A stretch of 64,000 bases of DNA from Microvirga lenta (GTDB lineage: Bacteria; Pseudomonadota; Alphaproteobacteria; Rhizobiales; Beijerinckiaceae): NCBI RefSeq assembly GCF_020532555.1, contig NZ_JAJBBR010000005.1, forward strand, positions 186,001-250,000. Reading direction: 5' to 3'. Under the pieces are notes generated by a model. That model was not told the DNA's origin. It worked only from the letters and a program-made list of their open reading frames with translations, and did no database searches. The translations under genes and the position numbers were made by a program. This document shows positions 55,816-63,798 of the stretch, one piece after another. Numbering within the stretch: the stretch's first letter is position 1; every line of letters begins with the position of its first letter.

Positions 55816-58317
55816 ATGCCGACAGGCGAGAAGATTTTCACATGGGAGGGCATCAGCCTGCCTTCCTACTGGGGCGGGAACTGGGGCACGACAACCGCGG
55901 ATGCGGCCTTCAACCAGATCAGGGAAACCGGCGCCAGCTCCGTGGCGATCATCCCGTCGTTCTACATGCCGAGCTACACGTCCAATACGATGGGGCTGGT
56001 TCACCAGTCGACCGACTTCAACAGCGAGTCCATGGCGCAGACCCGGGCTGCCATGCTCGACGTGACGTCGCGCGGCATGAACGTGATGCTCAAGCCGCAT
56101 GTGGAGACGATGGACCGCAAGTGGCGCGCGACCATCGACCCGTCCGATGTGAACCTGTGGTTCGAAAACTATACGTCGATGATGGTGCAATACGCCCAGC
56201 TCGCTCAGGAAACCGGCGCCCCGATGCTCTGCATCGGCACCGAGCTCGTGAGCATGAGCGGCGGCGGCATCATCCCCACCGATCGCGGCGGCAACGGCGT
56301 GACCACCTACCGCGACAAGTGGGTCGAACTCATCGCCGAAGTGCGCAGCGTCTATAGCGGCCTCGTCACCTATGCGGCCACCTATGAGGAAGTGAGCCAT
56401 GTGAGCTTCTGGGATCAGGTCGATTACATCGGCATCGACGCCTATGTTCCGCTCACGAACACGACGACGCCGACGGTAGACCAGTTGGTGCGCGGATGGA
56501 CGGAACCGTCCACCAACGGCTGGGTCAACGAGATCTACGGCGGCAAGCCGGTCATCGAGTACTACAAGGCGCTGTCCGAGCAATACGGCAAAAAGGTGAT
56601 CTTCACCGAGGTCGGCTATCGCAGCCGCGACGGGAACAACATGGATCCCGGCCTTTGGCAGGATGGCGGCACCGTGGATCACCAGGAGCAGAAGGACGCC
56701 TACGAGGCTCTGTTCAAGGTGATGACCACCCATGGCGGGCAGTGGCTCGACGGCGCGTTCCTGTGGAGCTACCACCCGTTCGAGAACCCGGAAGCGCACG
56801 ATGTCCAGGCGACCGACTTCACCACCCAGGGCAAGCCTGCCAACACGGTGGTGTCCTCGTATTACAGCAGTCCCGCCCATGTGGCAGGCCTCAACCGCAC
56901 CGGTACGGCTGGAGCGGACAAGCTCGACGGCGGCTATCACAACGACACCCTGAGCGGCAGCGCCGGCAACGACATTCTCTGGGGCGGCGCGGGTCACGAC
57001 GCGCTGAACGGCGGCGACGGAGCCGACACCCTGAACGGCGGCTCGGGCAACGACACCATGGATGGCGGCGCGGGCGAGAACATCGCAGTCTTCTCCGGCT
57101 CGAGCGCCAGCTACTCCATCGCAACCAACAGCGACGGCAGCTTCACCATCACCGACGCGCGCTCCGATGGAACCGGTTCGGACGTGCTCAGGAACGTGCA
57201 GTTCGCCAGATTCAGCGACCAGACGGTCGCCCTGGGAACCACACCTCCTCCGCCCCCGCCCGTGAACGAGGCACCGAGCGACATCACGCTCTCGAACGCC
57301 TCGGTACCCGAGAACAGCGGCGGCGGAACGCCCGTGGGGTTCTTGAGCGCCACGGACCCGAATGCGGGCGACGCCTTCACCTATTCCCTCGTGAGCGATC
57401 CTGGCGCCAAGTTCCAGATCGTCAACGACCAGCTTCAGGTCCGGCCCGGTGCGGTTCTAGACTACGAGACCCAATCCTCGCATCAGGTCACGATCCGGGT
57501 GACGGATCAGAGCGGCCTGTCCTACGACGAGGTTTTCACCATCGCGGTCGGCGACGTGCAGGAAGGATCGCCGAACCAGGCGCCCACGAACCTTGCGCTG
57601 TCGGGAACGGCCGTGAAGGAAAACAGCGCCGGTGGCCAGTATATCGGCATGCTGAGCGCCACGGACCCGAATGCGGGCGACACCTTCACTTATTCGATCG
57701 TGAGCGACCCGGACTCCAAGTTCCAGGTCGCCGGCAGTCAGCTCCAGGTGCGCCAGGGTGCGATCCTCGACTTCGAGACCAAGACCTCGCATCAGCTCAC
57801 CCTGCGCGTGACGGACCAGAGCGGCCTGTCCTACGACAAGAGCTTCACGATCTCGGTCGTCGACATCAAGAACGAGAAGATCAGAGGCCGCAGCACCAGC
57901 GAGGTCCTGACGGGAAGCGCCCAGAGCGAAGAGATCGACGGCAGCGCCGGCAACGACAAGATCTCGGGCGGGCTGGGCAAGGATGTGCTCGTCGGCGGCA
58001 AGGGTCGGGACACCTTCGTGTTCGATACGCGCCTGAGCAGGGCCAATGTGGACCGGATCGACGATTACAGCGTCAAGCACGACACGATTTATCTGGCCAA
58101 GAAGGTCTTTTCCAAGATCGGCAAGAAGGGCGTGCTGAAGAAAGACGCGTTCTGGATCGGCTCCAAGGCCCACGATGCCTCCGACCGCATCATCTACAAC
58201 AAGAAGACCGGCGCGGTGTTCTACGATTCCGACGGCACCGGAGCCGCGAAGGCCATCAAATTCGCGATTCTGGACAAGAACCTTAAGCTGACCCAGTTCG
58301 ACTTCTTCTCGATCTAA
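55816..58317 (+). CDS. Secreted multidomain protein: GH113-like glycosidase, RTX repeats, two cadherin-like domains
   Basis: The 833-residue protein starts without a signal peptide. A TIM-barrel domain (about 5-350) resembles GH113 beta-mannanases (GISLPSYWGGNWG, GAPMLCIGTELV, VIFTEVGYRSRDG with likely acid and nucleophile Glu, FLWSYHP). A short RTX block follows (about 370-420, GGxGxD nonapeptides), then a beta region and a proline linker. Two cadherin-like domains (484-586 and 587-690) and a C-terminal RTX/T1SS region (SGGLGKDVLVGGKGRDTFVF) complete it. Such proteins leave by a type I secretion system and bind calcium. It probably cuts a mannan- or glucan-type polysaccharide outside the cell. 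No T1SS genes are in the window. Confidence 0.88.
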   Translation: MPTGEKIFTWEGISLPSYWGGNWGTTTADAAFNQIRETGASSVAIIPSFYMPSYTSNTMGLVHQSTDFNSESMAQTRAAMLDVTSRGMNVMLKPHVETMDRKWRATIDPSDVNLWFENYTSMMVQYAQLAQETGAPMLCIGTELVSMSGGGIIPTDRGGNGVTTYRDKWVELIAEVRSVYSGLVTYAATYEEVSHVSFWDQVDYIGIDAYVPLTNTTTPTVDQLVRGWTEPSTNGWVNEIYGGKPVIEYYKALSEQYGKKVIFTEVGYRSRDGNNMDPGLWQDGGTVDHQEQKDAYEALFKVMTTHGGQWLDGAFLWSYHPFENPEAHDVQATDFTTQGKPANTVVSSYYSSPAHVAGLNRTGTAGADKLDGGYHNDTLSGSAGNDILWGGAGHDALNGGDGADTLNGGSGNDTMDGGAGENIAVFSGSSASYSIATNSDGSFTITDARSDGTGSDVLRNVQFARFSDQTVALGTTPPPPPPVNEAPSDITLSNASVPENSGGGTPVGFLSATDPNAGDAFTYSLVSDPGAKFQIVNDQLQVRPGAVLDYETQSSHQVTIRVTDQSGLSYDEVFTIAVGDVQEGSPNQAPTNLALSGTAVKENSAGGQYIGMLSATDPNAGDTFTYSIVSDPDSKFQVAGSQLQVRQGAILDFETKTSHQLTLRVTDQSGLSYDKSFTISVVDIKNEKIRGRSTSEVLTGSAQSEEIDGSAGNDKISGGLGKDVLVGGKGRDTFVFDTRLSRANVDRIDDYSVKHDTIYLAKKVFSKIGKKGVLKKDAFWIGSKAHDASDRIIYNKKTGAVFYDSDGTGAAKAIKFAILDKNLKLTQFDFFSI
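57265..57882 (+). repeat. 309-bp tandem cadherin-domain duplication
   Basis: Two consecutive 309-bp units (57265-57573 and 57574-57882) encode 103-residue cadherin-like domains. They share long nearly identical DNA stretches, such as the segment coding SATDPNAGD at 57346 and again at 57655, which points to a fairly recent duplication. Confidence 0.85.
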
Positions 58318-58440: not shown

Positions 58441-61209
58441 TCAGAACCGAATGCTCAGGCTGCCGCGCAGGGTGTGCTCCTGGTTCTTCGCGCCGATGGC
58501 GCCGGTATAGGCGACGCCGAGCGTGACCTTCTCGCTCACCGCCCAGTTCAGCCCCGCTTCGGCCACGAGGCTATCCGTGTCGATAGGCGCGCCCGAGATG
58601 AGGAAGGGCGTGCTGCCGGACACGTAGGAGAAGGTTGCTTCCGGCACCGTGTCGCCGAAGGCATGGCGCCACCCGAGCATGCCCTTGAACGTGAGCAGGC
58701 CGGCGCTGGTCGGCAGGGTGGCGGTCAGGCGCGCTCCGAGGGTGGAGTAGGTGGTGTCGAAGGAATGGGCCTCGCCCATCACCGCGACGGCGGAGCCCTC
58801 CTCCATGATCGCGCGGCTGTCGATATGCACGTGCGCCAGGCCTGCGAAGGGCTCGATGACGAGGCGTTCGCTCAGCGGGATCGCGTAGCCGACCTCTCCG
58901 AAGGCCTGGACGGAATCCGTCGAGCTGCCGGAGAGCGTGGTGCCGGAAAAGCCCGTGAAGGCGATGGCCCGGTGCACGTCGACCTCGTGGTGGGCATAGG
59001 CCACGCCGCCCCGCAGGTTGAAGGCCCCGAGAGAGGCGGAACCGTAGGCGCCGATATGAAGGCTTTCGACCGTTCCGGAGGACGAGAGTCCCGCCACGTC
59101 GAAGCCGGTCGAGAAGTAGCCGGCCGCGAGCCCGAAGCGATAGGGCGTGCCGAGACCGCCATCGACGCCGAACACGACGCCGCCGGTAGTGCGCTCCACC
59201 GCCGCCGTGGTGGCCGTCGCATCCGTCGTGCCCCAGGAGCCGATGGCCTTGCCCCAGACGGCCCAATCCGTGTTCCGGGCAGGCGCAACGGCCACCGGCG
59301 CCGCGACGGCCTGCCTGCGCGCGGGCATGTCGGCCATGTAATCGACCTGCACGCCGTCGAGCGCCGCGAAGGTGGGCAGCCCGCCCATGGAGCACCGCAG
59401 GCGGCAGAGGATGGCGGCGCGGAAGAGATCGTCGTGGCTCAAGATCACGCCCGTGGCGCTCACCAGCGCCTCGCCCGAGGTGAGGTCGAGAACCCGGGGC
59501 AGCTCGTCCTCCGTCACCGGCAGATAGGGATCGATGATCGGCCGGTCGGCGGGCATCGTGGAGGGCCGGATCTGCGGCAGCATGAGATAGATGTTGTTGC
59601 CGTCCTTCGTCAGGATCGGCCTGAAGAAGGCGAGGTTCGTGGTCACGCTGGAGAACTGCCCCGTCACGCCGCCCTGCGCCGTGAGGATCGTCCACCGGCT
59701 GCCCGGCCTGTAATCGCCCGGCAGGGCATTGACCTGGACGCGCCCCCCTTGAACCTCCGCCGTGCCGTTGGCCACGATTCTGTCGCTCTGCAGGCCCGCA
59801 TCGAGGTCGACCCGGTAGATCGTGCCGTTGGCGATCAGCACGTTACCCGTGACGTTCAGGATGCCGATTCCGCCCACGCCCGGCGTCAACGTGCTGCCGG
59901 ACCGGGCGCTGATGCTGCCGACCGTTCCGGAGCCGCCGAGGGTCGCTCCCGAGAACACGGTCATGTCCGAGCCGCCCATGGACCCGACCACCATGAGCGT
60001 TCCCTCCCGGACGGCCCAGGGCATGGCGGCATCGTTGGTGCCGACCGTCGTCCAGGTCGAGGCTCCGACCTTCTCGTAATTCTCGAAGTGGCGGTACTGC
60101 GCCGCGGGGCCGATCTTGCTCACGTCGAAGGTGGCGTCTGTGTCGCCGCCGAGCGCAAAGGTATCCGTTCCGCTCTCGGCGTCGATGTAGCCGTCGATCT
60201 GCGACGAGGAGCCGATCAGGAAGTAATCGTCCCCGCTTCCCAGCTGCCCGGCGACGCCGCTGCGGGCGACGATGCGGCCGAAATTCTCGAACCGCTCGCT
60301 GCCACCCTCGAAGTGCAGGGCATCGCTCTGCCGGGTCTCGATGACGCCCGAGGCCTCGTTGACGAGACGCGTGCTCTGGCCGGAGGTCGTGCTGACCCAG
60401 ATGCCGTAGGAAGATGCGGCCCCGCTGGTGTGAACCGAGCCGCTGTTGACGACGGCGTTGCCGGTGCCCTGGTCGACCTTGATCCCCTGGGCGTTGCCGC
60501 CCGACGTTCTGATCGTGCCGCTGTTGGAGATCGCGTTGCGACTTCCGGTCGCCCTCACGCCGTTGCTGAAGTCGCCGGACGTGGAGATCTGGTTCTCGTT
60601 CACGAGCGTGTTGTCGTCGCCCTTGGCTCTCATGCCTTCGGCGCCTCGCCCCGTGGTGACGATGCTGCCCCGGTTGGTGAGGGTGTTGGCGTCCCCCTCC
60701 CCGTACATGGCGCGGCCGGAGGATCCGGTCGTCCGCACGGTGCCTGCATTGGTCACGGCGTTCCGGTCCCCGACGGCGCGCAGCGCATCGGCGGACGTGC
60801 CTTCCGACGATACGGTTCCACGGTTGAGGATGACGCCCTGATGACCGACGATCTCCATCACGTCCGCCGCGTTTCCGTTCGTCGACAGGGTGCCGTCGTT
60901 GGTCAGCGAGGTGCGGTCGCCGGACCCCAGGATCGCGCTGAACGTATCGCCGTTGACCGTCGCCTGTCCCTCGACCGTGACGGCTCCGTCGCTGTTGACC
61001 ACGGCGAGCGGAGCATTGGTGGAGACGGACGTGCCGGAGCAGGCGACCGAATTGCCGTTCCGCACGCAATCCGCCCAGGCGGGCCGACCCAGAACCAGGA
61101 GGGCGAGGACGCCGGCAGAGGCGCCTGCCATCAGACGGAATGTCAGATACTTCGCGGCTGTTCCGATACGCTGCCCTGGGGCATCACCACGCCTGTCGAT
61201 CTTGATCAT
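58441..61209 (-). CDS. Autotransporter (type V secretion) protein
   Basis: The 922-residue protein has an extended N-terminal signal peptide (basic start, hydrophobic core, cleavage near AWA-D, about residue 46). A passenger follows with beta-helix repeats of about 22 residues of the form ALTNxGTVxTxG (about 80-280). A variable part with the autotransporter-associated strands comes next, and the last 270 residues form a 12-strand outer membrane barrel ending in the classic SLSIRF C-terminal phenylalanine. The passenger is probably displayed on the surface as an adhesin; no protease or lipase motif is seen. GGAGGGAG precedes the ATG. Confidence 0.93.
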   Translation of the reverse strand: MIKIDRRGDAPGQRIGTAAKYLTFRLMAGASAGVLALLVLGRPAWADCVRNGNSVACSGTSVSTNAPLAVVNSDGAVTVEGQATVNGDTFSAILGSGDRTSLTNDGTLSTNGNAADVMEIVGHQGVILNRGTVSSEGTSADALRAVGDRNAVTNAGTVRTTGSSGRAMYGEGDANTLTNRGSIVTTGRGAEGMRAKGDDNTLVNENQISTSGDFSNGVRATGSRNAISNSGTIRTSGGNAQGIKVDQGTGNAVVNSGSVHTSGAASSYGIWVSTTSGQSTRLVNEASGVIETRQSDALHFEGGSERFENFGRIVARSGVAGQLGSGDDYFLIGSSSQIDGYIDAESGTDTFALGGDTDATFDVSKIGPAAQYRHFENYEKVGASTWTTVGTNDAAMPWAVREGTLMVVGSMGGSDMTVFSGATLGGSGTVGSISARSGSTLTPGVGGIGILNVTGNVLIANGTIYRVDLDAGLQSDRIVANGTAEVQGGRVQVNALPGDYRPGSRWTILTAQGGVTGQFSSVTTNLAFFRPILTKDGNNIYLMLPQIRPSTMPADRPIIDPYLPVTEDELPRVLDLTSGEALVSATGVILSHDDLFRAAILCRLRCSMGGLPTFAALDGVQVDYMADMPARRQAVAAPVAVAPARNTDWAVWGKAIGSWGTTDATATTAAVERTTGGVVFGVDGGLGTPYRFGLAAGYFSTGFDVAGLSSSGTVESLHIGAYGSASLGAFNLRGGVAYAHHEVDVHRAIAFTGFSGTTLSGSSTDSVQAFGEVGYAIPLSERLVIEPFAGLAHVHIDSRAIMEEGSAVAVMGEAHSFDTTYSTLGARLTATLPTSAGLLTFKGMLGWRHAFGDTVPEATFSYVSGSTPFLISGAPIDTDSLVAEAGLNWAVSEKVTLGVAYTGAIGAKNQEHTLRGSLSIRF

Positions 61210-61441: not shown

Positions 61442-61735
61442 ATGATGAGAGCCGTGCTCTCCGCCGCAATTTTCGCCTCCCTGACCGGGGCGGCCCTGGC
61501 CCAGGAGGCGTCGAAGCCCCTGCAACTGGTGGTGCGTCCCTCCGGCTACGACGCCGTTCAGAACGAGGCCAAGGAGCGGCAGGAGCGCCTGCTCAGGCGT
61601 CTGGAGCAGAGCAATCACATGATGCGTTCCATCTGCACTCATTGCGGCGACGAGTGGAAGCATCAGATCTATGCTCCGTTCCACCCCCTCGCGACCCTCG
61701 GCGGGACGCGGACGGCAGAGGAGCAGGGAAACTGA
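61442..61735 (+). CDS. Small exported hypothetical protein with CxxC
   Basis: The 97-residue protein begins with a clear signal peptide (cleavage near ALA-QE, about residue 20). The mature part has a charged helix (NEAKERQERLLRRLEQSNHMMRSI) followed by CTHCGDEWKH, a CxxC with nearby His that could bind metal or be redox active. No family is recognised. The ATG at 61442 has GGA seven bases upstream; the region before it has no similarity. Confidence 0.7.
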   Translation: MMRAVLSAAIFASLTGAALAQEASKPLQLVVRPSGYDAVQNEAKERQERLLRRLEQSNHMMRSICTHCGDEWKHQIYAPFHPLATLGGTRTAEEQGN

Positions 61736-61857
61736 GCAAGCCGGCCCCTTCCGCCCCAGTCTCGGCCGCGCGCTCCGCCGGCGCATGGGTGCCGGCGCTC
61801 GCCGCAAGACGGAACTTAAGCAAAGTCGGCTTTGCAAGTCGCGAGCCTCGCAACAGA

Positions 61858-61886
61858 TTGAGGCGGCAAAATCTTTCCTCTATACC
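61858..61886 (+). promoter_or_regulatory. Promoter of the guanidine riboswitch-gdx unit
   Basis: TTGAGG (61858-61863) and TATACC (61881-61886) are 17 bp apart, giving a likely start near 61893, just at the first riboswitch hairpin. Confidence 0.55.
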
Positions 61887-61893
61887 TTTCGGA

Positions 61894-61944
61894 GTACGAG
61901 GACGACCTCGTGCTTTCCCGGCGATCGGTGGGGACGGCCCTGCC
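61894..61944 (+). promoter_or_regulatory. Guanidine-II riboswitch (mini-ykkC)
   Basis: Two hairpins carry the diagnostic ACGR loops. The first pairs GTACGAGG (61894-61901) with CCTCGTGC (61906-61913) around ACGA. The second pairs GGTGGGG (61927-61933) with CCCTGCC (61938-61944) around ACGG. They are 13 nt apart, and the ribosome site GGAG (61951-61954) of the guanidinium exporter gene follows seven nt after the second hairpin. In this class guanidinium binding stabilises the two loops and frees the ribosome site. Confidence 0.9.
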
Positions 61945-61961
61945 TGTGACGGAGCCCTGTC

Positions 61962-62279
61962 ATGGCATGGACTTATCTCGTTCTCGCGGGCCTCTTCGAA
62001 ATCGGCTGGGCTATCGGCTTGAAGTACACGGACGGATTCACCCGCATTCTTCCCTCCGTTCTCACGGCGGCCAGCATGATCGTCAGCGTCCTGCTGCTCG
62101 GCCTGGCGCTGAAATCCCTGCCCGTCGGCACCGGCTATGCCGTCTGGACCGGGATCGGAACGGTCGGAACCGCAATTCTGGGCATCATTCTCCTGGGGGA
62201 ACCTGCGACGGCGGCGCGCCTCGCCTGCATCGGACTGATCGTGGCCGGCATTCTCGGCCTCAAGCTGGCCTCGGGCTAG
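61962..62279 (+). CDS. gdx: Guanidinium exporter Gdx (SugE-type SMR protein)
   Basis: The 105-residue, four-helix protein is an SMR transporter of the SugE/Gdx subtype: [21 protein letters not shown] with the substrate-binding Glu13 and the LKYTDGFTR tail. [23 protein letters not shown] and [14 protein letters not shown] follow. It exchanges protonated guanidine for protons across the inner membrane as an antiparallel dimer. A guanidine-II riboswitch lies directly upstream, which supports this function over quaternary-ammonium resistance. The diguanylate cyclase gene follows after 25 bp. Confidence 0.95.
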
Positions 62280-62304
62280 CCCGGACGATCCGTCGGAGGG
62301 CACC

Positions 62305-63798
62305 ATGGCGGCAGCACGTTCCATCAAGGCTTTGTCCTCGGCCCTGTGGCTGAAGGCATTCGTCGCCGTTGTCTGCCTGGCCATCGTGACCCTCGAAGGC
62401 TGGCGCGACTGGAACGAGCGCCAGGAGGAGTTCACGGCCATCGAGGCGTCGGTGACCAACCTCGCCAAATCCCTCACCCAGCACGTCGAGGACACCTTCG
62501 AACTGGCCGACGCCATTCTGGTCGACATCGTCGACCGCATCGAAAGGGGCGGCGCCTCCCCGGATGCGATCACGCAGATGGACGAGTTCCTGGCCGAGCG
62601 GATCCAAACCCTGCGCCGCTTCAAGACCCTGACCATCTACGGTGCGGACGGTGTGCTTCTCGGCAGCTCCCTGCCGGGCCACCGCTACAAGGTCGATGTC
62701 CGGGATCAGGCGTTTTTCCAGCATCACAGCACGACGCCCGCCGGGAGATGGTTCTTCGGCCCCCTCATCCGGGATCCGGTCGGCAGCGACTGGGTTCTGA
62801 CGCTCTCGCGCCGCATCGACAAACCGGACGGCAGCTTCGGCGGCGTCGCCGTAGCAACCATTCCCCATCTCTACTTCGCGACCTTTTTCAGCCGTTTCGA
62901 CGTGGGCATGCAGGGAACGATCACCCTGTTTCACACGGACGGCACCCTGCTCGTGCGCTTTCCCTCCCGGGAGAACGCCATCGGGCGCAACGTATCCTAC
63001 GAGCCCTGGTTCAAGGACGGCGTCACCTGGGGATCCTTCGAGTACAAGTCCCCCATCGACGGGGTGGAGCGCATCAGCGGCTATCAGCGCAACCACATCT
63101 TTCCCATTGGCGTCCTCGCGTCGGTCGGCAGGGTCGAGGCCCTGGCGGATTGGAACCGGGAATTCGTGTACCGGGCCGTCGCCGTCCTGATCCTGGTCGG
63201 CCTCCTGGCCTATCTCGGATGGAGCCTCTCGCGGCAGCTGACCCGGCGCGAAAGGGCGGAAGCGGAGTTGTCCATCCTGGCGGCCACCGACGGCCTGACC
63301 GGTCTCGCCAACCGCCGGACCTTCGACAAGGCTCTCGAAACCGAATGGTCCCGGGCGGCACGCCAGGGCACGCCGCTGGCGCTCCTGCTCATCGATATCG
63401 ACCGCTTCAAATGCTTCAACGACTATTACGGGCACCAGGCGGGCGACGAGAGCCTGCAGACGGTGGCACGGATGCTGTCGACGGCGGTGAAGCGCCCGGG
63501 CGATCTCGTGGCACGCTATGGCGGCGAGGAAATCGTCATTCTCCTGCCGGCGACCGATGCGGCCGGCGCCGCGGCGGTCGCGGAGGAGGCTCGGGCTCGG
63601 ATCGAGGCGCTTGCCATTCCCCACAATGCCAATACGCCGTCCTGCGTGCTCACGATCAGCATCGGCACCGCGGCGGTAATGCCCGCTTTCGAGCAGCTCG
63701 ACAGCGATCCCAAGATGCTGGTGGCTCTGGCCGATCAGGCGCTCTACCAGGCGAAGCTAGAGGGCCGCAACAGGGTGTCCATGGCGGAGGCTGCGTGA
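62305..63798 (+). CDS. Membrane diguanylate cyclase with PDC/Cache-type sensor
   Basis: The 497-residue protein has an N-terminal membrane helix (about 14-34), a periplasmic double-PDC/Cache-like sensor (about 40-285, with YGADGVLLGSS and HTDGTLLVRFP), a second helix (about 292-312) and a GGDEF domain. The active site reads GGEEI (406-410), and an RxxD inhibitory site (RPGD) stands five residues before it. It should make cyclic di-GMP with product feedback. GGAGG precedes the ATG. It follows gdx by 25 bp and could be cotranscribed with it. Confidence 0.94.
   Translation: MAAARSIKALSSALWLKAFVAVVCLAIVTLEGWRDWNERQEEFTAIEASVTNLAKSLTQHVEDTFELADAILVDIVDRIERGGASPDAITQMDEFLAERIQTLRRFKTLTIYGADGVLLGSSLPGHRYKVDVRDQAFFQHHSTTPAGRWFFGPLIRDPVGSDWVLTLSRRIDKPDGSFGGVAVATIPHLYFATFFSRFDVGMQGTITLFHTDGTLLVRFPSRENAIGRNVSYEPWFKDGVTWGSFEYKSPIDGVERISGYQRNHIFPIGVLASVGRVEALADWNREFVYRAVAVLILVGLLAYLGWSLSRQLTRRERAEAELSILAATDGLTGLANRRTFDKALETEWSRAARQGTPLALLLIDIDRFKCFNDYYGHQAGDESLQTVARMLSTAVKRPGDLVARYGGEEIVILLPATDAAGAAAVAEEARARIEALAIPHNANTPSCVLTISIGTAAVMPAFEQLDSDPKMLVALADQALYQAKLEGRNRVSMAEAA

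Follow-up and report, generated by a model that had tools for sequence, protein, structure and literature searches.

A guanidine-II riboswitch before the gdx gene of Microvirga lenta, with a predicted start-codon-masking platform, and related leaders before PACE transporter genes

The locus studied here raises the question of whether a short leader RNA in Microvirga lenta, a member of a soil genus, senses guanidine and, if so, how sensing could govern the exporter gene that follows. The stretch of DNA that we analysed, referred to here as the window, is 64,000 nucleotides long. A first-pass annotation had described two stem-loops with ACGA and ACGG loops, 13 nt apart, before the ribosome site of a SugE/Gdx gene, and reading of the letters confirmed this arrangement (Table 1). 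Its assignment to the guanidine-II (mini-ykkC) class was borne out by the covariance-model search that it had named as a check. Comparison of the whole window with 4227 families by cmscan returned a match to RF01068 (guanidine-II) at 61894-61942 on the forward strand, with a score of 38.7 bits (E = 3.4e-4) against a gathering score of 32 bits, and the match covers the full length of the model (1-48 of 48). It is the sole Rfam match in the 64-kb window at gathering scores, and a second guanidine-II element in the genome was ruled out since the gdx leader is the single RF01068 match in the whole 4.5 Mb. In the covariance model P2 has 5 bp, which gives a linker of 15 nt, and counting P2 as 7 bp gives 13 nt. 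A search of the 64 kb for paired GGACGRCC cores with a spacing of 8-38 nt gave a single occurrence, compared with a mean of 0.04 in 100 dinucleotide shuffles, 4 of which contained the pattern. Taken alone, P1 folds far better than shuffled sequences, and P2 is moderate by this measure (z -2.2; 4/200 shuffles as good). P2 ends at 61944 and is followed by the SD-like sequence and the ATG (61962) of the Gdx-type gene. Upstream, RNA from the promoter-like TTGAGG/TATACC site would begin at about P1; for this site, picked by eye, a consensus promoter scanner reported none at its threshold. The element resembles the RF01068 class in its two G+C-rich ACGR hairpins, short linker and location immediately upstream of the ribosome site of a Gdx-type gene, and differs in a longer P2 of 7 bp that includes tandem wobbles. 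Our data indicate that the window element almost certainly belongs to the guanidine-II class, of which the riboswitch is an ordinary member.

Table 1. Positions of leader elements and genes in the window
Feature	Positions	Strand	Basis
Promoter-like TTGAGG - 17 nt - TATACC	61858-61886	+	By eye only
Hairpin P1, 8 bp	61894-61901/61906-61913	+	RF01068 match, letters read, fold (z -5.3)
P1 loop ACGA	61902-61905	+	Letters read
Linker L1/2, 13 nt	61914-61926	+	RF01068 match, fold, letters read
Hairpin P2, 7 bp, two G-U wobbles	61927-61933/61938-61944	+	RF01068 match, fold, letters read
P2 loop ACGG	61934-61937	+	Letters read
P2 3' strand CCCUGCC, shared segment pairing with P2 5' strand or (predicted) start region	61938-61944	+	MFE fold, genus leaders
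Predicted hairpin GUGACGG/CUGUCAU containing SD and part of start codon	61946-61963	+	MFE fold; sequence much conserved in genus
SD-like CGGAG	61950-61954	+	Letters read
gdx/sugE, 105-aa SMR transporter of Gdx type	61962-62279	+	NF008512, PF00893, PDB relatives
Start-region competitor GGCAUGG (end of AUG, Ala2, Trp3)	61964-61970	+	Fold, codon use
dCache-GGDEF gene, own SD (GGAGG, by eye)	62305-63798	+	25 nt downstream of gdx

We found the gdx gene in all 48 searched genomes of the genus, and the two-hairpin leader stands before the orthologous gene in 39 of them. Both loops are ACGR in 38 of these 39 leaders, and the remaining one (L037) has ACGC in P2. Among 37 genus members with the leader (two of the 39 were excluded for short frames), the 62-nt leader is less divergent than the four-fold sites of gdx in 666/666 pairs, with means of 0.190 vs 0.490. 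Two family members, G148 and G015 (loci L021 and L022), carry two RF01068 matches approximately 490-540 nt apart in each stretch, one before gdx and the other before a different ORF.

The first-pass annotation had named the gene as SugE/Gdx and had held that the riboswitch fixes guanidinium as the substrate of the transporter. The family assignment stood, with a match of the product to NF008512 (SugE equivalog) at 145.4 bits, above the cut-off of 126, and to PF00893 at 95.5 bits. The best PDB relatives are 6wk5 and 8vxu, and 6wk5, whose PDB title reads only 'Multidrug resistance protein, SMR family', we take to be Gdx-Clo. Gdx-Clo and the Microvirga protein have the same length, 105 aa, and residues 1-104 align free of gaps. 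The binding pocket of Gdx-Clo is formed by W16, S42, Y59 and W62 around the central E13 (PMC10829512), and all five residues are present in the Microvirga protein, which has V43 in place of the portal residue F43 of Gdx-Clo (PMC10829512). Guanylurea is also a substrate of SMR-Gdx proteins, some of which additionally carry biguanides with a single substitution (PMC10829512). Since Gdx proteins carry these related cations as well, the claim that the substrate is fixed goes beyond the evidence. The genome holds one other SMR gene, an EmrE-like paralogue that is 36% identical to the gdx product and has alanine at positions 16 and 42. This paralogue has no RF01068 match, and no pair of ACGR-loop hairpins was seen by eye in the 151 bases upstream of it. 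That the paralogue differs in pocket residues and has no guanidine-II match supports guanidinium as the gdx substrate, short of proof. From riboswitch and pocket residues together, guanidinium is the best guess for the substrate, and a likely one.

The gene downstream of gdx encodes a dCache-GGDEF protein (diguanylate cyclase) and neighbours gdx in 26 of the 30 genus loci L031-L060. It is possible that this gene links guanidine to c-di-GMP, or that it is a mere operon partner of gdx. On the reverse strand, an autotransporter gene (PF03797) with a repetitive passenger (58441-61209) is transcribed away from gdx, and farther upstream the forward strand (55816-58317) encodes a protein that joins a GH113 glycoside hydrolase domain to RTX calcium-binding and cadherin repeats.

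We next asked how the leader could control gdx, and hypothesized that it does so at the start codon. By analogy with other members of the class, the kissing of the two hairpins would be accompanied by the binding of two guanidinium ions at the ACGA and ACGG loops. Without ligand, folding and codon choice suggest that the linker would pair with the P2 5' strand and that the freed P2 3' strand CCCUGCC would pair with GGCAUGG of the start region; its predicted pairing with AUGGCAUGG would mask the start codon, which the small SD hairpin would help to hide. A P2 held by ligand would reclaim its 3' strand, so that a build-up of guanidine would turn on production of the exporter, and the Gdx protein would then export guanidinium. 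We consider it very probable that the element is a translational ON switch, and our estimate for the whole explanation, in which a guanidine-II riboswitch exerts translational ON control of gdx by start masking, is high as well. That the start would be masked specifically through the P2 3' strand we regard as somewhat more probable than not.

In the MFE fold of a 91-nt segment of the window, P1 is formed and P2 is absent. The linker segment UCCC (61916-61919) is paired with GGGA (61931-61934), the P2 3' strand with 61964-61970, and 61946-61952 with 61957-61963, and the AUG (61962-61964) is wholly paired. GGCAUGG is complementary to the P2 3' strand save for one C/U mismatch, and P2 and the predicted ligand-free fold are mutually exclusive. 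In the 39 aptamer-bearing leaders of the genus, a threshold of 2 expected pairs was reached by the P2 3' strand with the start region in 32 cases, compared with 15 for P2 itself, 9 for the linker and P2 5' strand and 3 for the linker and start region. The start-region pairing is nearly invariant within the genus, so that there is no compensatory change to count. When P2 was forced in 45 leaders (39 of the genus and 6 of the family), the mean openness of the start region rose from 0.15 to 0.36, and that of the SD went from 0.48 to 0.40; the SD was not opened and its hairpin can persist. Since forcing P2 opens the start region and not the SD, the model favours masking of the start codon rather than of the SD. 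Forcing P2 cost 5.1 kcal/mol in the window and from 0 to 7.3 kcal/mol over the 45 leaders; by this calculation, the weak binding of two ions may barely cover the penalty of the ON fold in the window. Not all leaders share the full ligand-free fold predicted for the window, since P2 is already in the MFE of 12/45 leaders and linker pairing with the P2 5' strand reached the threshold in 9/39.

Codon choice offers a further view of the start region. This strand encodes Met-Ala-Trp, which leaves the third base of Ala2 free to vary, and the codon GCA completes the pairing UGCC:GGCA. Ala2 is GCA in 37/39 Microvirga orthologues with the two-hairpin leader (the exceptions are GCC in L078 and GCG in L026) and GCG in all nine orthologues without the aptamer. 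GCA is a rare codon, accounting for 18 of 249 Ala codons in four genes of the window. Among four-fold codons at positions kept in at least 90% of the 39 orthologues, Ala2 has the highest codon conservation; at the next best Ala position the top codon, GCC, is found in 33/39. Outside the genus, 5/6 aligned family relatives have another codon at position 2 (one for Pro in one of the five), and GCA occurs in L028 only. The contrast between GCA and GCG in the two groups of leaders represents one evolutionary event, and codon 2 may alternatively be kept for initiation itself rather than for pairing with P2.

The predicted platform can be compared with those proposed for other guanidine-II riboswitches. 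For G. violaceus, it has been suggested that a stem-loop takes in parts of both P2 and the ribosome site and cannot coexist with the folded riboswitch (PMC5486947). The proposed Microvirga fold is of the same kind, and its predicted partner differs in being the start codon and codons 2-3, with codon choice tracking it. In P. aeruginosa, a P0 helix has been modelled and is supported by a RelE translation assay (PMC9561414), and this precedent speaks for control of gdx mainly by other means, namely a P0 helix of the 5' and 3' flanks or a co-transcriptional, Rho-dependent or decay mechanism. Against it, in this one leader, the 91-nt MFE fold leaves the 5' flank (61880-61891) without a partner; in a 121-nt fold, pairing with the coding region involves a few bases of the flank. 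No terminator-like site was found in 61600-62500, which led us to reject control by a transcription terminator; we regard control mainly by such other means as improbable.

The E. coli sugE leader shares two ACGR hairpins (ACGG in P2), a 13-nt linker and the sugE gene with the Microvirga locus. Its linker has been put forward as a putative anti-SD, and an alternative fold in which P2 is opened and paired with the linker has been reported (PMC9300104, PMC9094411). A platform of this type, in which folding around the ligand pulls the linker off the SD, draws on that published model and on the leaders of PACE genes described below. In 72 distinct PACE leaders the mean duplex energy of linker and SD region is -13.26 kcal/mol, compared with -12.62 (sd 0.24) when linkers and SD regions were dealt out anew (0/200 deals as low); linker and SD region are complementary in many PACE leaders, the advantage is small, and leaders of the Agrobacterium type pair only weakly (about -5). 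In contrast to E. coli, none of the 39 genus gdx leaders, the window included, has at least 2 expected pairs between linker and SD, and in the predicted OFF state it is instead the 3' strand of P2 that would occlude the start codon. We therefore consider an E. coli-type platform for gdx very unlikely. A decayed or chance pair of hairpins before a constitutive gdx deserves hardly any credence: P2 is weaker than P1 and does not form in the ground state predicted for the window, but the RF01068 score above the cut-off, the 0.04 occurrences per window expected from shuffles and the conservation of the leader in every pair led us to reject it.

The ACGR hairpins are gone in 9 of 48 genomes (L034, L039, L049, L054, L067, L068, L071, L073 and L077), and these orthologues form one clade in the gdx tree (100/98). 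No Rfam match overlaps the nine leaders, even at E up to 10. They are nonetheless less divergent than four-fold sites in 35/36 pairs (0.244 vs 0.429). The sequence CCUCGCGUU is common to eight of the nine and can pair over the SD with GGUGACGUGAG (all nine, with one-letter variants), and the same eight share an ACGC that can pair with GCGU at codon 2. In L054 the long stem is broken. An alternative fold of the nine leaders consists of two short hairpins. We rejected the idea that the nine are paralogues from another locus, since the neighbours are kept in the four loci with a long enough stretch: an upstream 97-aa ORF in 4/4 and the downstream GGDEF gene in 3/4 (L034, L049 and L054).

Evidence for function of the nine leaders as a switch is weak. 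No pair of the SD-hiding stem is changed on both sides, and the two-hairpin fold has two such pairs, a number equalled by 18/500 shuffles. Compared with 200 shuffles, two of the nine leaders fold better than all and two no better than the shuffled mean. Forcing the second hairpin opened the SD by more than 0.05 in 3/9. A model built from the nine leaders (R1) and run on 199 family genomes, two of the nine included, matched these two and two others at 26 bits; the latter have no gdx downstream and were taken as chance. The folding calculations thus give a weak case for the nine leaders as a working switch, and a remade or a decayed riboswitch is a candidate explanation for the leader of this clade. 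By description only, the nine leaders can be set beside GGAM-5, a sugE-associated leader RNA of Alpha- and Betaproteobacteria (PMC7736828). For GGAM-2 to -6, the authors describe seeing no guanidine binding (PMC7736828).

In two of the nine loop-less genomes, a weak RF01068 match drew attention to a gene of the chlorhexidine-efflux family PACE (PF05232, 175.7 bits). Within the genus, one PACE subfamily comprises 13 loci (L081-L093) that are at least 72% identical, all with paired hairpins (L089 has ACAA in the second loop). Of these 13 loci, 12 match RF01068, with scores of 27.9-38.7 bits that reach the cut-off of 32 in 6 cases. By eye, no hairpin pair was seen at 16 more distant PACE loci (L094-L109), and the five of these put to Rfam (L094-L098) had no RF01068 match; the Rfam comparison covered 18 of the 29 genus PACE loci. 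We then turned to a wider set made up of the best 80 of 141 PACE relatives from named genomes (L114-L193), seven of which are from Microvirga. Two core motifs lie within 100 nt of the start in 69 of these best 80, and none of 3468 background stretches taken from those loci has two; RF01068 scores above the cut-off in 52 of the 80 (11 + 16 + 11 + 14), mostly in Alphaproteobacteria. The loci above the cut-off include Rhizobium, Agrobacterium, Neorhizobium, Devosia, Thalassospira and a Nitrosomonas bin, and the PACE elements of both sets (L081-L093 and L114-L193) are sited approximately 20-75 nt before the start codon. We found no statement of a link between guanidine riboswitches and PACE in the literature searched; since this negative does not extend to the supplementary gene list of PMC2864571 or to the 2017 validation paper, we make no claim to priority. 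In PMC10149990, PMC9228545 and PMC9287405, both subjects are named in unrelated places.

PACE genes with a guanidine-II-like leader are present in 8 of the 9 genomes without the gdx aptamer vs 5 of the 39 with it (Fisher 2.7e-5, with no correction for kinship, the nine being one clade). These data raise a scenario that we consider tentative and, on balance, unlikely, in which the riboswitch at gdx of this clade lost both guanidine-binding loops and was remade to another signal as a conserved leader that can fold over the SD and start, while guanidine sensing in the clade passed to a PACE transporter under guanidine-II control.

The riboswitch before gdx is itself a clean and expected example of the control of guanidine detoxification. 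The start codon and the rare second codon, acting as a decoy strand for P2, would constitute a testable expression platform, and the single loss of the aptamer loops within one genus provides a natural series for studying the death of a riboswitch or a change of its ligand. The link between guanidine-II elements and PACE genes is broad, and it suggests a role for a PACE subfamily in handling guanidinium or guanidino compounds.
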